Shown here one piece after another: positions 1,689-59,568 of a DNA stretch of 60,036 bases (its first letter is position 1; each line of letters starts with the position of its first letter). The stretch comes from an archaeon (lineage in GTDB: Archaea > Thermoplasmatota > Thermoplasmata > Methanomassiliicoccales > Methanomethylophilaceae): assembly GCA_024399215.1 (NCBI GenBank), contig JAKSHT010000003.1:1-60036 (forward strand), written 5' to 3'. Under the pieces are notes generated by a model, which saw only the letters and a list, made by a program, of their open reading frames with translations, did not search any database and had not been told where the DNA came from. A program made the position numbers and the translations under genes.

Positions 1689-2657
1689 TTAATTCGGTAT
1701 TGGGTTTCCAGATTCTATTCTTATCCCTTCTACACTCGTACTCACGACAAGTGGGATCCCTCCATGGAGGTTAATTATCTGGCATACTTTGCTGGATTCA
1801 TCAGTAAGCGCAATCATACTACCTCCTCCTCCGGAACCAGTTAGTTTAGCTCCATAGGAGTGAACCAGTGAAGCATCTACAAGTTTGTCAAGCTCCCTGC
1901 AAGAAACACCAAGGGCCGATAATAAATTATGGTTTTGTGTCATCAGTCTGCCAAGATGCTCCAGATCATTTTTCGATAATGCTCGTATGCCATCCATCGT
2001 GATATTTCCTATTTCATCAATTAAGTTTTCTGCAAATGAATTTTGTTCCCTGTATTTTCTAACCTTATCGACTAGAGATGCGGTTAAAGACTCTACTCCG
2101 GTATAGCCAATTACAAATGTCATCTTCGGAATAGAGATATCAAAAATGTCCCATGTATTACCATTTTTAGAAGCAGTCCAAAGATATTTACCTAAATTTT
2201 TAGGGCAATTGACAGCGATACCATTTCCGAATGTGCAACATGATGTATCTGTAGGACTTGCTCTACCTTGCACTTTATATTCAGCTTCAAAAGCCTCTGA
2301 TGCTATGTCTTTTTTATTGTATGATTTTCCAAACATGCTTTTTATAGATGTTAATAAAGACGTGCATAGGGCACCGGATGAACCTAAGCCAGAACCAGGA
2401 ATGAGCTCACTTTTTATAGTTATGGAGGCGGTAGCGAGATTATTCGCGGAGAGGATGCTACTGACATATGAGTTGCTATCTAGGGCAATACGAGATCCGT
2501 TAAGTGTAAGTTCAGCACTCTTGCCAATGGTACAAGTAAGACGTTTATTGATTGCTAATGCCACAGCCGGTTTACCATACACAACGGCATGTTCCCCCAT
2601 CAGAATAAATTTTCCTGGTGATGAGGCAGTGAATTTTTTGTACGTTATGTCATTCAT
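1689..2657 (-). CDS. mvk: Mevalonate kinase (GHMP kinase)
   Basis: The enzyme phosphorylates mevalonate to mevalonate 5-phosphate, which both the classical and the archaeal routes to isoprenoids use. The N-terminus reads SSPGKFILMGEHAVVYG, the GHMP motif 1 typical of mevalonate kinases. The phosphate-binding loop GSGLGSSGA lies near residue 90 and motif 3 KLTGSGGGGSMIAL near residue 270. At 322 residues it has the usual archaeal length. The ATG overlaps the end of the upstream gene at 2650-3219 by eight bases, so the two are probably one transcript. The next enzyme, phosphomevalonate dehydratase, is encoded at 13394-15333. Confidence 0.93.
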   Translation of the reverse strand: MNDITYKKFTASSPGKFILMGEHAVVYGKPAVALAINKRLTCTIGKSAELTLNGSRIALDSNSYVSSILSANNLATASITIKSELIPGSGLGSSGALCTSLLTSIKSMFGKSYNKKDIASEAFEAEYKVQGRASPTDTSCCTFGNGIAVNCPKNLGKYLWTASKNGNTWDIFDISIPKMTFVIGYTGVESLTASLVDKVRKYREQNSFAENLIDEIGNITMDGIRALSKNDLEHLGRLMTQNHNLLSALGVSCRELDKLVDASLVHSYGAKLTGSGGGGSMIALTDESSKVCQIINLHGGIPLVVSTSVEGIRIESGNPIPN

Positions 2658-13393: not shown

Positions 13394-14164
13394 CTATAGA
13401 TTAGACAGCTCCCTTATAACCTTGAGCACCTTGTCATCTATGTCTATATTTGATGTTTTGTCAAGACGGAATGGTTTGTATTCGATATTCTTGCCTTTTA
13501 TACTTGAAATGGGTCGCTCCATGTAGAAAATGAAAAAGTGTACATTCCAAACAGTTTGTCCTTTTCGAATCATAATAGAATCGGGCAATTTTTTGAATGA
13601 TTGGGCATTTTCCTCGAATTTTTCTTTGATTCCTCTTATGGCAGCATGTTCTAGTGTTTCGTTCTTTTTGACATCACTAGTGTAGAGAGCCCATCCTTTT
13701 GGATATAAATCGTGCCATTCTGGCTGTTTAAAGAGTATGATGCTTTTGTCTACGGCTATTATCGACGATATTAGATCCTTCATTTCAACATTCTTTATTT
13801 CTATCACTCCTTCGCTAGCGTTGACTATTACGTAGTCTCCATTCATGATCAAGTCAGTGTTAACAAGATCTATCATGGGAATAGAAGAGATTACGGCACC
13901 AGTGGCTACAATCGTTTCAGCCAATGAATTAATTATGGCCACAGGGGCTCTTCCATGAACTTTAAGATTGTATATAACAAAGGAACCTACAGTGCTTCCC
14001 CTGCCATATGGAAATACAAGAATTTTGTCTTGTATATCTACCTTCTCGGCCTCCATTTTGCCAGTTGATATATTTACATCTCCGAGAAAACTAATCGATC
14101 TGTTAAATTTGAGAACATTGCCTTCGGCACATCCTTTAGAAATCATACGTCCTTTTAGTATCAT
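13394..14164 (-). CDS. Phosphomevalonate dehydratase small subunit fused to a Nudix-like domain
   Basis: Residues 1 to about 128 are the aconitase-X swivelling domain (DUF126): KGRMISKGCAEGNVLKF at the start and FPYGRGSTVGSFVIY at residues 51-65. With the large subunit it dehydrates mevalonate 5-phosphate to trans-anhydromevalonate phosphate. Small subunits are usually only about 130 residues; here another 125 follow in the same frame and resemble a Nudix hydrolase. The box region at residues 163-184 keeps the E-x7-R spacing, but the leading Gly is Ser and the REUxEE acidic cluster reads RGIKEK, so hydrolysis may be impaired. The start is the ATGA overlap at 14164, chosen over an earlier in-frame start because it begins exactly at the domain. 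Confidence 0.87.
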   Translation of the reverse strand: MILKGRMISKGCAEGNVLKFNRSISFLGDVNISTGKMEAEKVDIQDKILVFPYGRGSTVGSFVIYNLKVHGRAPVAIINSLAETIVATGAVISSIPMIDLVNTDLIMNGDYVIVNASEGVIEIKNVEMKDLISSIIAVDKSIILFKQPEWHDLYPKGWALYTSDVKKNETLEHAAIRGIKEKFEENAQSFKKLPDSIMIRKGQTVWNVHFFIFYMERPISSIKGKNIEYKPFRLDKTSNIDIDDKVLKVIRELSNL

Positions 14165-15333
14165 TGTATTATCTTCAATAAATCCACAATATCTCGACAC
14201 ATAACTTTTTGAGAGCAAAGTGTTGAGAGGTAACTTCTTGCTTTACATGAGTTTGTTCCAGTTTTTGAAAATACTCCTTCAATTGGAGAAACTACTACAC
14301 AAGTATCTGCTAATACATGGCCAAATTCTTCCATTATCTTAACGTCATCGGAACATTTTGTTTTGATGGCATCTGATGTACAAAACCATACTTCAACGTC
14401 ACTCTTTTTTTTCTTCCCCTTCAATAATGATGCAATTTCGTGCATTTCTTTTTCTGTAAGATGCGGGCATCCCAATGCTATTAATTGGACGTTGTCTGTA
14501 TTGCTCAGATCCTCATATGCAGCTTTGAGATCTTTTTTTCCAATGCATATAGTATCAATGTCGGATATGTCGAAATCTCTGTATTCTGGCGTAACATTCT
14601 CTACATGAAATAATGCTATTGCTCCTGAAGATGCCATTGAAGCTGCCATGGCCTTTACTTCTTCAATTCCGGGTGTGATTCCTCTATAGTAAGGAATACC
14701 ATTTCCTATCATAGAGCCTACTACATGACCTAACAAAGAGTATTCGAAAACTGAATTGCCGATGTCAGTATCAATTATTACGGTGGGCCTCCTATTTCTT
14801 TTTTGATGAAGCCCATAATTCGCGGTTTTTCCTAAAATTGCGGCTGCTAATGCTCCAGGGCCGCCTTCTCTGTTAGTTCTTGCACCGATGTATGAATTTA
14901 CGAAAGATAGTGCCGATGATTCTGCCCATGCCACATGGTCGTTTAATTTTGGTATGTTTGTATCAACATATGGGATGCATGAGCAAGTAGTTTTGACACC
15001 CATTGCATTGTATAATTCCAGTATTCTGGCCTGTTTCTTTGCAAAAGGCTCAGATATGTGCATTTTGGCCCACTTAGTTCTATCCATTCCGATAGGGTTT
15101 AAAGTTGATATCACCTTGACCCTACCACCTTTTCTTACCATATTTTCAAGGTAAAGAAGTCCCCCATCGCCGATAGTCTTATATGAAGCTCCTGACAGGT
15201 GTGCTGAAGTAATATTTACTAAATTTTCTGCGCCGTAGACTTTTCCTAATGCAACAATAAGTTCCATTGCCTGTTGAGGGCCCTCTCCAAACTCTCCGTC
15301 TAGAGTCTGTTGCTCTTCTCTGCTAAGGTCCAT
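14161..15333 (-). CDS. Phosphomevalonate dehydratase large subunit (aconitase X catalytic)
   Basis: This is the Fe-S catalytic subunit (DUF521/AcnX) of phosphomevalonate dehydratase, the branch enzyme of the archaeal mevalonate pathway. Recognisable segments are ITSAHLSGASYKTIGDGGL near residue 42, a Cys-containing TTCSCIPYVD near residue 113, and IALGCPHLTEKEM near residue 285; these cysteines are candidates for cluster ligands. At 390 residues it has the usual length. Its TGA overlaps the small-subunit ATG by three bases (ATGA), so the two are translated together. Mevalonate kinase and isopentenyl phosphate kinase, the enzymes before and after in the route, are also in this window. Confidence 0.9.
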   Translation of the reverse strand: MDLSREEQQTLDGEFGEGPQQAMELIVALGKVYGAENLVNITSAHLSGASYKTIGDGGLLYLENMVRKGGRVKVISTLNPIGMDRTKWAKMHISEPFAKKQARILELYNAMGVKTTCSCIPYVDTNIPKLNDHVAWAESSALSFVNSYIGARTNREGGPGALAAAILGKTANYGLHQKRNRRPTVIIDTDIGNSVFEYSLLGHVVGSMIGNGIPYYRGITPGIEEVKAMAASMASSGAIALFHVENVTPEYRDFDISDIDTICIGKKDLKAAYEDLSNTDNVQLIALGCPHLTEKEMHEIASLLKGKKKKSDVEVWFCTSDAIKTKCSDDVKIMEEFGHVLADTCVVVSPIEGVFSKTGTNSCKARSYLSTLCSQKVMCRDIVDLLKIIQ

Positions 15334-56750: not shown

Positions 56751-57530
56751 ATGATATTGATTAAGCTGGGCGGGAGCGTTATCACAGATAAATCCAGGTA
56801 TCGGACGTTTAATAGGGAATGTACGGCAAGATTGTGTCAAGAGATTAAAAAATCGGGAAAAAGTGTGATTATTATACATGGCGCAGGTTCGTTCGGACAT
56901 ATTATTGCATCGAGGCATTTTCTTAATCTTGGGCTCAGAAGTAAAGAGCAGATTTCTGCATATGTGCAGGCATGCTATGATACACGATGTTTGAGTTTAT
57001 TAGTCGTTAAGGAGCTTAATGATGCAGGACTTCCTGCTGTGTCTATTCCAACTGGTTCTTGTTTTATGACAAGGAATGGGAGGCTTGTTATCAGAGATGA
57101 TTCTGTGCTTAGAGAGATGTTTAAACTTGGAGTTATACCAGTGACATTTGGAGACGTAGTACTTGACACAAAATTTGGGTTAGCTATATGTTCTGGAGAC
57201 CAACTTGTTGAAACGTTTGTGGATATTTTTCATCCATCGAAAGTTGTATTCGTGTCTGATGTCGACGGATTGTATTATGATGACCCAAAATGTAATCCCG
57301 GAGCAGGGTTTGTTAGAATTGTTAGTAAATCCATCTTGAGCGCTGTAAAGACCGACAACGTTACTACGGATGTGACTGGTGGAATGAAAAAAAAGGTGGA
57401 AACTATGCTCAGAATTAGTAGTAAAGGATGTGATTGCGTTCTTGTCAATGGAATTGTTAAAGGGAGGTTACTATCGGTATTGGCTGACGAATGTGTGCCA
57501 TGCACCATTGCTAAAGGACAGATGAAATGA
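56751..57530 (+). CDS. ipk: Isopentenyl phosphate kinase
   Basis: This amino acid kinase family enzyme converts isopentenyl phosphate to IPP, the last step of the archaeal mevalonate route. It has MILIKLGGSVITDKSRYRTF, HGAGSFGHIIASRH with the family His, GDVVLDTKFGLAICSGDQLV, VSDVDGLYYDDPK and VTTDVTGGMKKKVETM. At 259 residues it fits IPK. ATG 56751 is preferred to a TTG fifteen bases upstream because the kinase fold starts exactly there. Its stop overlaps the fni start by four bases. Confidence 0.93.
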   Translation: MILIKLGGSVITDKSRYRTFNRECTARLCQEIKKSGKSVIIIHGAGSFGHIIASRHFLNLGLRSKEQISAYVQACYDTRCLSLLVVKELNDAGLPAVSIPTGSCFMTRNGRLVIRDDSVLREMFKLGVIPVTFGDVVLDTKFGLAICSGDQLVETFVDIFHPSKVVFVSDVDGLYYDDPKCNPGAGFVRIVSKSILSAVKTDNVTTDVTGGMKKKVETMLRISSKGCDCVLVNGIVKGRLLSVLADECVPCTIAKGQMK

Positions 57531-58597
57531 CTGGAATTAAAGAAAGAAAAACCGGGCATGTGAGTATTGCATTGAAACAAAGGGCACATTCGGGGTACAG
57601 ATATTGGGACGACATAAGATTTGTACACGAGGCGTTGCCTGAGATAAATTATGACGATATAGATACCTCGTCATATGTTTTGGGGAAAAAATTGGATTTT
57701 CCTTTTATCGTTACTGCTATGACGGGGGGTTTTAAGGGCGCTAAAAAAATTAATGAAAATATCGCAATTGCATGTTCTGAACTTGGAATTGGTATGGGTA
57801 TTGGGTCTGAGAGAGCGGCAATAGAAGGCATCCACAGAGAAAGTTACTCAATAATCAAAGAATATGATATTCCTCTAGTAATTGGCAACATCGGTGCTCC
57901 GCAGCTTGTTAAGCAGAAAAGTGGCAAGGTATACAATAATGATGATGTATCGTTAGCAATGGAGCTTATTAACGCAGATTTCATGGCAGTTCATCTTAAC
58001 TTCCTTCAAGAGAGCATTCAGCTGGAAGGTGACATGAACGGTAGGGGATGTTATGATGCTATTAAATCTCTAGCACACGATTTTCCAGTAATAGTAAAGG
58101 AGACGGGAACAGGGATATCTCCAAGGACTATTTCAAGGTTAGATGATACTGAAATAAAAGCTATCGATGTTAGTGGAGTGGGAGGTACAAGTTTTTCTGC
58201 AGTAGAAATGCGTAGGGCTGCTGATGAAAGAAATATTATGAAACAAAAATTAGGACGTACATACCTTAATTGGGGGATTCCAACACCAGTGTCACTTGCT
58301 GGTGCAAGTACAAAAATTCCAATAATTTCGTCTGGAGGCATAATTAATGGATTGGATGTCGCAAAGTCGATTGCGCTTGGTGCAATATGTGCCGGTGGAT
58401 CATTTGTCGTACTTCGCGAATCAACAAAATCGGCCAAGGACGTTATGGATGTTCTAAAATGTATAAAAGAAGAGTTTAAAACGGCAATGATGTTGACTGG
58501 ATGCAGGTCTGTAGGCGAATTGGCGAACATAAATTATGTAGTGATTGGAAGGACTAAAGAATGGTTAGAGGGATTTAAGTGGCAGACCCAAAAATAA
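57527..58597 (+). CDS. fni: Isopentenyl-diphosphate isomerase, type II (FMN)
   Basis: This isomerase makes DMAPP from IPP with FMN and NADPH. Type II landmarks: RYWDDIRFVHEALPEINYDD, FPFIVTAMTGGFKGAKKIN, ELGIGMGIGSERAAIEG, VIGNIGAPQLV, VKETGTGISPRTI, and the C-terminal phosphate-binding IISSGGIINGLDVAKSI with ALGAICAGGSF. Length 356 is normal. It overlaps ipk by four bases and the GGPP synthase by nineteen, so the three form one operon. Confidence 0.94.
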   Translation: MTGIKERKTGHVSIALKQRAHSGYRYWDDIRFVHEALPEINYDDIDTSSYVLGKKLDFPFIVTAMTGGFKGAKKINENIAIACSELGIGMGIGSERAAIEGIHRESYSIIKEYDIPLVIGNIGAPQLVKQKSGKVYNNDDVSLAMELINADFMAVHLNFLQESIQLEGDMNGRGCYDAIKSLAHDFPVIVKETGTGISPRTISRLDDTEIKAIDVSGVGGTSFSAVEMRRAADERNIMKQKLGRTYLNWGIPTPVSLAGASTKIPIISSGGIINGLDVAKSIALGAICAGGSFVVLRESTKSAKDVMDVLKCIKEEFKTAMMLTGCRSVGELANINYVVIGRTKEWLEGFKWQTQK

Positions 58598-59568
58598 TTT
58601 TGGCAGAAATATCAAGGGACCTCGACTCCCGAATTAAATTATACATTAAAGACGAGCATCCCAGGAATCTTATCGAGGCGGTAAGGCAGTATCCTTATGC
58701 AGGCGGGAAAAGAATAAGGCCTTCTTTAGTTATCGCTTCATGCGGCGCTGTGGGTGGAGAAAAATCGAAATCCATTCCACTTGCGGTTGCTATTGAGTAT
58801 ATTCATAATTTTACGCTCATTCATGATGACATTATTGATGGAGACAGGGAACGGCGTGGAATGCCAACATCTCATACGAAATACGGGACGCCGACAGCCA
58901 TCTTGGCAGGCGATGCTCTGTTTGGGAAAGCGTTTAATGTATTGTCAGAATTGGATGTCTCTGATAAAGATCTAAGGAGAATTCTGAGGTCTATCACTGC
59001 CGCTGTATGGGATCTTGCTCGTGGACAGCAAATGGATATTAACAATGAGTGTGGTAGGACAGTAACAATAGACGACTATATTGAGACTATCCGTCTCAAA
59101 ACTGGCGTTCTTTTTGCTGCAAGTGCCGTAGGAGGTGCATTGATTGGTGGGGCGGACGATCTAACCATAGAGGCAATTTGTAGGTATGCTACGTCACTCG
59201 GTATAGCGTTTCAAATATTCGATGACATTCTTGGAATCGCAGGCGATCCTATAAAAACCGGAAAATCTGTTGGAAATGATATTCGTAGGGGCAAATATAC
59301 GGCCATAACGTGTCATGCAGCTGAAAGTATCAAAGATGAAAATGAAATGAGAAGATTCTGTTCGATATTTGGAAAAATAGACAGTTCTGAGGAAGAGATT
59401 GGTGTAGTCAGATCTATACTTGAAAGATCTGGTAGTATTGCTTATGCTGTTAGACTGGCCGAGAAGTACTCGAAAGATGCTGTGTCGGAATTGAGTCTTC
59501 TGACATCTAGTGAGGATAAGGATTTTATGATTGACCTTGCGAGGTATGCAGTAACGAGAAGTGTTTAA
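58579..59568 (+). CDS. Polyprenyl (geranylgeranyl) diphosphate synthase
   Basis: The enzyme chains IPP units onto DMAPP to make the C20 lipid precursor. It has the first aspartate-rich motif LIHDDIIDGDRERRG near residue 80, the preceding AGGKRIRPSLVIASCGAVGG, and the second motif FQIFDDILGIAGDPIKTGKS near residue 210, and ends with helices. Length 329 suits GGPP synthase. The start is GTG 58579 inside the end of fni. The product feeds the lipid pathway together with the reductase at 483-1673. Confidence 0.92.
   Translation: MADPKIILAEISRDLDSRIKLYIKDEHPRNLIEAVRQYPYAGGKRIRPSLVIASCGAVGGEKSKSIPLAVAIEYIHNFTLIHDDIIDGDRERRGMPTSHTKYGTPTAILAGDALFGKAFNVLSELDVSDKDLRRILRSITAAVWDLARGQQMDINNECGRTVTIDDYIETIRLKTGVLFAASAVGGALIGGADDLTIEAICRYATSLGIAFQIFDDILGIAGDPIKTGKSVGNDIRRGKYTAITCHAAESIKDENEMRRFCSIFGKIDSSEEEIGVVRSILERSGSIAYAVRLAEKYSKDAVSELSLLTSSEDKDFMIDLARYAVTRSV

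Follow-up and report, generated by a model that had tools for sequence, protein, structure and literature searches.

A predicted Nudix domain fused to the small subunit of archaeal phosphomevalonate dehydratase, with a catalytic box that is broken in one lineage

In the 60,036-nucleotide stretch of archaeal DNA analysed here (the window), a gene on the minus strand at 13394-14164 encodes a 256-residue protein in which the predicted small subunit of phosphomevalonate dehydratase is joined to a Nudix domain. Our main reading, to which we give a probability of about 40%, is that this protein descends from an old fusion in the class Thermoplasmata between the swivel subunit and a catalytically competent Nudix pyrophosphohydrolase, that the Nudix half would hydrolyse isoprenoid diphosphates in relatives, and that it has become non-catalytic in the window's lineage. 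A preliminary description had already proposed the fusion from the window's sequence, and this proposal was upheld by PF01989, by Foldseek and by intact orthologues.

The fused gene is open throughout its 256 codons, and its start overlaps the stop of the large-subunit gene as ATGA (stop TGA at 14161-14163), which fixes the start where the preliminary description had placed it. The large subunit itself (aconitase X, type II; 14161-15333, minus strand; PF04412, E = 1e-139) lies directly upstream, and the same pairing was found in most of the loci examined. The remaining neighbours are ileS, fen1 and rpe; in the loci of the order that we examined the fused gene is not beside UbiX or UbiD, and gene neighbourhood was dropped as a direct pointer to these two genes. 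Residues 1-127 (13784-14164, minus strand) make up the swivel domain: residues 24-98 match the Pfam family AcnX_swivel_put (PF01989) at 8.8e-24, TK1248, a solved small subunit (7cnr), aligns with residues 3-123 at 4e-27 (2hi6 also matches), and the conserved G-[KR]-GSTVGS segment is present as GRGSTVGS, with G, S, V and S columns that are invariant across the 58 rows of the alignment. Judged by sequence, this half is a phosphomevalonate dehydratase small subunit (AcnX type II). The preliminary description had also denied any frameshift, and rightly so, because the independent genome of a sister species, G003, the closest relative sequenced, carries the same fusion at 64% identity with the same lost residues; this rules out a chimera or misassembly as well.

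The second half, residues 131-256 (13397-13774, minus strand), has the limits and general character that the preliminary description gave it; that description had named Nudix profiles, structure prediction and a survey of archaeal genomes among the ways to check the domain. The profiles gave a divided answer: the window's C-terminal half alone has no Pfam Nudix match above threshold and is reached weakly by NudI profiles (NCBIfam, 7e-4), but intact orthologues match PF00293 at 1e-17. A profile built from the Nudix halves of 58 fused proteins hits 13403-13771 at 5.6e-38. Structure prediction was clearer. The AlphaFold2 model of the fused protein is confident (mean pLDDT 92), and Foldseek with the C-terminal half returned NudI, MutT and MTH1-type Nudix structures at E-values of 1e-7 to 2e-6 (1.3e-7 for NudI), with TM-scores to target of 0.7-0.8 and the alpha/beta/alpha Nudix fold; rose NUDIX1-GPP was also among the matches. 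On the predicted structure we assign the C-terminal half a Nudix fold, and a chance fold assignment is ruled out by the confident model, the Foldseek matches and the intact orthologues. Type 1 IPP isomerase shares this fold, and a reading of the domain as such an isomerase was not supported: its NCBIfam match (9e-4) is far below the isomerase cut-off, a type 2 isomerase was found in 16 of the 16 genomes tested, and the relatives carry the hydrolase box.

Set against the consensus GX5EX7REUXEEXGU, the Nudix box of the window protein, SDVKKNETLEHAAIRGIKEKFEE (residues 163-185; 13610-13678, minus strand), has lost three positions (G163S, E178G and E182K) and kept E169, R177, E181 and the spacing. 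The preliminary description, which located the box at 163-184 and called the domain degenerate on account of missing key glutamates and a glycine replaced by serine, with the E-x7-R spacing preserved, was therefore correct in substance. The protein does not carry the catalytic Nudix signature with its metal-binding glutamates, and it probably cannot hydrolyse.

This state is exceptional within the family. The metal-binding [E/D]xxEE motif (E-x2-EE) is kept in 94 of the 97 distinct fused copies sampled; a pattern search gave 95, having also picked up EKFEE, a chance match further along the window protein, the box of which reads GIKEK by eye. The three exceptions are the copies of the window genome and of G003, which have RGxxEK in common, and a strongly diverged second copy in G097. 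The last of these (L157:4050-4838) combines a diverged swivel (ARGSTVGP) with a lost Nudix box, adjoins an intact large subunit and a UbiD homologue, and is an independent loss of the box. In many fused copies the box arginine is replaced by lysine or glutamine, or the loop is shorter by one residue.

The survey also showed how far the fusion extends. A match to the fused protein was found in 60 of the 61 genomes of Methanomassiliicoccales, and it is fused in every case but that of G028, where the end of the contig truncates it; the match in G029 (L011) has an open frame with a divergent stretch close to its C-terminus, of the kind that a frameshift would give. The window genome itself has a fragment of methyl-coenzyme M reductase alpha, consistent with a methanogen. 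Across the class Thermoplasmata, 20 families have a full-length match to the fused profile (model positions 1-254); family f18 has an unfused swivel and family f22 is without the dehydratase. Genomes from other classes of the phylum carry both the swivel (positions 2-125, ~130 residues) and the Nudix domain (positions 127-255, 130-155 residues), but as separate genes, and in family f54 they are 1 kb apart. A coiled-coil-like gene lies between the two in f54 (L151:1962-2858, L152:4427-5320). In family f14, G068 (complete) and G125 (94%) are without the large subunit and keep the Nudix domain behind a short swivel remnant. Loci of f14 with a Nudix domain and a decayed remnant are L154:3382-4506, L155:2493-4499 and L156:3507-4247; in the genomes of L154 and L155, which are without a large subunit, the remnant is a molecular fossil of the fusion. 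The preliminary description had called the fusion new to its author. It is not private to the window genome, but we found no published mention of it: among the open-licence literature no paper on a Nudix domain fused to AcnX or DUF126 was found (the one DUF126 match was a plant study), and neither "Nudix" nor "fusion" appears in the main text of a 2024 survey of archaeal isoprenoid genes. Domain-architecture databases may nevertheless include the fusion as an uncommented entry.

Since the Nudix domain stands alone in other classes and is kept in relatives without the dehydratase, it had, or gained, a role independent of that enzyme. Because 94 of 97 copies keep the metal ligands, because the halves are separate elsewhere in the phylum and because the Nudix domain outlives the dehydratase, the ancestral domain probably had pyrophosphohydrolase activity, and metal-dependent activity of this kind is to be expected of the intact relatives. 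These observations bear directly on the explanation offered in the preliminary description, in which a phosphorylated isoprenoid or a nucleotide would bind to the Nudix module and the module would regulate the dehydratase, as we read it allosterically. With E-x2-EE kept in nearly all copies, regulation by a degenerate Nudix domain cannot explain the family and is at most a derived state in the two sister species; nor can it be the original role of a domain that is a separate gene in other classes and persists where the dehydratase is gone. In the two sisters, catalysis must be lost and yet the fold is confident, selection continues and both R200 and W206 are retained, as regulation would have it, but R147 and E225, invariant in relatives, are also gone from the window protein. 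Taking both sides together we regard this explanation as unlikely.

How the dead domain has evolved can be followed in the same two species. In the Nudix tree the starred branch leading to the window genome and G003 has 2.48 changes per site, relative to a median end branch of 0.31. After the two species split, dN/dS was 0.31 for the Nudix half (CI 0.14-0.56) and 0.14 for the swivel (0.07-0.23), with no bootstrap reaching 1, estimates that come from a simple count method applied to one species pair with dS near 1. Identity between the two is 76% in the swivel and 49% in the Nudix half, the latter in line with other family pairs whose swivels are about as similar (53 +/- 7%). The dead Nudix domain thus evolved very fast in the window's lineage and was still constrained afterwards. 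The tree has 127 columns, too few to tell one fusion event from several; the fused group needs at least three changes on starred branches, and as the midpoint root lies close to the fast-evolving lineage of the window we draw no origin from it. Could the tail simply be decaying and functionless, or an artefact of assembly? The long branch, the low completeness of the assemblies (79%, with contamination of ~6%) and the failure of the window half alone to reach the Pfam threshold would fit such an account. However, an independent genome at 64% identity shares both the open frame and the lost residues, the dN/dS ratio stays well short of 1 and the predicted fold is confident, and we consider decay or artefact very improbable and largely refuted already. 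Because the metal ligands have been lost and purifying selection persists, the reading most consistent with the data is that the window protein serves without catalysis, in a structural role or in ligand binding. Hydrolysis would have been lost in the window's lineage and the folded domain kept for such a job, candidates being to hold the two-subunit enzyme together or to bind a ligand.

What the intact domain might do in relatives is suggested by the pathway to which its partner belongs. The archaeal mevalonate pathway was worked out recently; after the dehydratase comes a decarboxylase of the UbiD family, the members of which need prenylated FMN made by UbiX, so that the fourth step depends on a cofactor that itself derives from a product of the pathway. 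To our knowledge, the source of dimethylallyl phosphate (DMAP) for prenylated FMN in archaea is not established. Several pathway genes share the same 60 kb with the dehydratase: mevalonate kinase, an earlier step (1806-2621, minus strand; TIGR00549, 1.6e-65, over cut-off), isopentenyl phosphate kinase, a later step (56754-57530, plus strand; NF040647, 1.5e-63, over cut-off), type 2 IPP isomerase (57527-58597, plus strand; TIGR02151, 6e-104, over cut-off) and a polyprenyl/GGPP-type diphosphate synthase (58579-59568, plus strand; NF040698/NF041003, ~1e-80, below the equivalog cut-offs). With one UbiX and one UbiD homologue in addition, the window genome has the rest of the archaeal mevalonate pathway (mevalonate kinase, UbiD homologue, isopentenyl phosphate kinase and type 2 IPP isomerase). 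UbiX was present in 31 of 33 genomes tested, including those without the dehydratase that keep the Nudix domain and swivel remnant. The shorter type of UbiD tracks the dehydratase in most genomes, being present wherever the latter was found except in G145 and G002, in which no UbiD homologue at all was found, and being absent from the f14 and f22 genomes without the dehydratase, which have only the longer type. In G002 (same genus, 96% complete) UbiX also went undetected, and the fused small subunit is present.

In relatives, the Nudix half may hydrolyse a diphosphate tied to isoprenoid metabolism, the most likely substrate being DMAPP and/or IPP, converted to the monophosphates. We favour such an isoprenoid diphosphate only tentatively, with a nucleotide as the main rival. 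Hydrolysis of DMAPP to DMAP is attractive in view of the prenyl-FMN-dependent family to which the next enzyme of the pathway belongs: the DMAP so made could supply UbiX, and through prenylated FMN the UbiD-family decarboxylase. In E. coli, NudB, NudF, NudJ and NudI dephosphorylate DMAPP, and DMAP from NudJ feeds prenyl-FMN (PMC12359138). Standalone Nudix genes have archaeal lipid genes nearby in two unrelated contexts, one with GGGP synthase and a geranylgeranyl-reductase-like gene and the other with a UbiA prenyltransferase. Carried to its full extent, the proposal would make the Thermoplasmata small subunit bifunctional, its intact Nudix domain making DMAP from DMAPP for UbiX so that one pathway enzyme helps to make the prenylated FMN of the next, with the activity lost and the domain repurposed as a non-catalytic ligand-binding part in the window's lineage; we think this fuller version distinctly unlikely. 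DMAP supply in the two sister species does not require the Nudix domain, because UbiX and the UbiD homologue are kept, the domain is dead and a profile search, on which the paralogue census rests, found no close Nudix paralogue in either genome.

The isoprenoid model has to be weighed against the company that this Nudix subfamily keeps in other phyla, where it occurs with ribose-1,5-bisphosphate (R15P)-isomerase-like, CinA C-terminal and chorismate genes, contexts that point to nucleotides rather than prenyl diphosphates. It could be, then, that the fused domain is a housekeeping nucleotide or ADP-ribose pyrophosphohydrolase, that its fusion to the dehydratase is an accident of co-expression and reflects no metabolic connection, and that loss of the activity cost the small window genome little. 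Related Nudix domains fused to R15P-isomerase-like domains (L185, L216, L223 and L244), or beside CinA-type NMN amidohydrolases or shikimate genes, would be expected on this account, as would the retention of the domain where the dehydratase has been lost. So would its structural neighbours: the closest solved structures to the intact domain are RNA/NTP pyrophosphohydrolases (BdRppH, NudI and Ap4A hydrolases), with prenyl-diphosphate enzymes further down. Yet the fusion has been maintained across 20 families, and purifying selection after catalytic loss is not expected of a dispensable passenger; we judge the housekeeping account somewhat unlikely.

A Nudix domain fused to the enzyme of the third step across much of an archaeal class is a directly testable candidate link to DMAP supply; failing that link, it is a conserved accessory domain that would be missed by studies of the dehydratase from other archaea. 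A natural comparison with a catalytically dead domain is available in the window's lineage. Among known systems, Nudix enzymes of the NudI, RppH and MutT type (PF00293) are alike in predicted fold and box position, and the window's orthologues have their box intact, whereas the window copy has lost G163, E178 and E182, probably does not hydrolyse and is fused to a lyase subunit. Prenyl-diphosphate Nudix enzymes (rose NUDIX1, and E. coli NudJ, NudB, NudF and NudI acting on DMAPP) have substrates that are metabolically adjacent, and 6ypf and 5gp0 are among the top structural matches, but the likeness is one of structure and pathway context, identity being only 10-24%, too low to transfer substrate. 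The Hecatella and Nitrososphaeria fusions (L185:3923-5347, L216, L223:3992-5356 and L244:3992-5329) belong to the same Nudix subfamily and are likewise fused to a metabolic enzyme; they differ in that the Nudix domain is N-terminal and the partner has an IF-2B/R15P isomerase fold. In several bacteria (L201, L204, L217 and L243) the Nudix and R15P-isomerase-like domains are adjacent genes, and in several Chloroflexota (L178:3482-4390 and other Dehalococcoidia loci) the gene immediately before a related standalone Nudix gene encodes a CinA C-terminal protein (nicotinamide-nucleotide amidohydrolase). The closest comparison for the protein's first half is the archaeal small subunit TK1248 (PDB 7cnr; PF01989), which is encoded directly after its large subunit and with which the swivel is alike over its whole length; known solved small subunits end at ~134-141 residues, whereas the window protein continues for 125 more, which form the Nudix domain.
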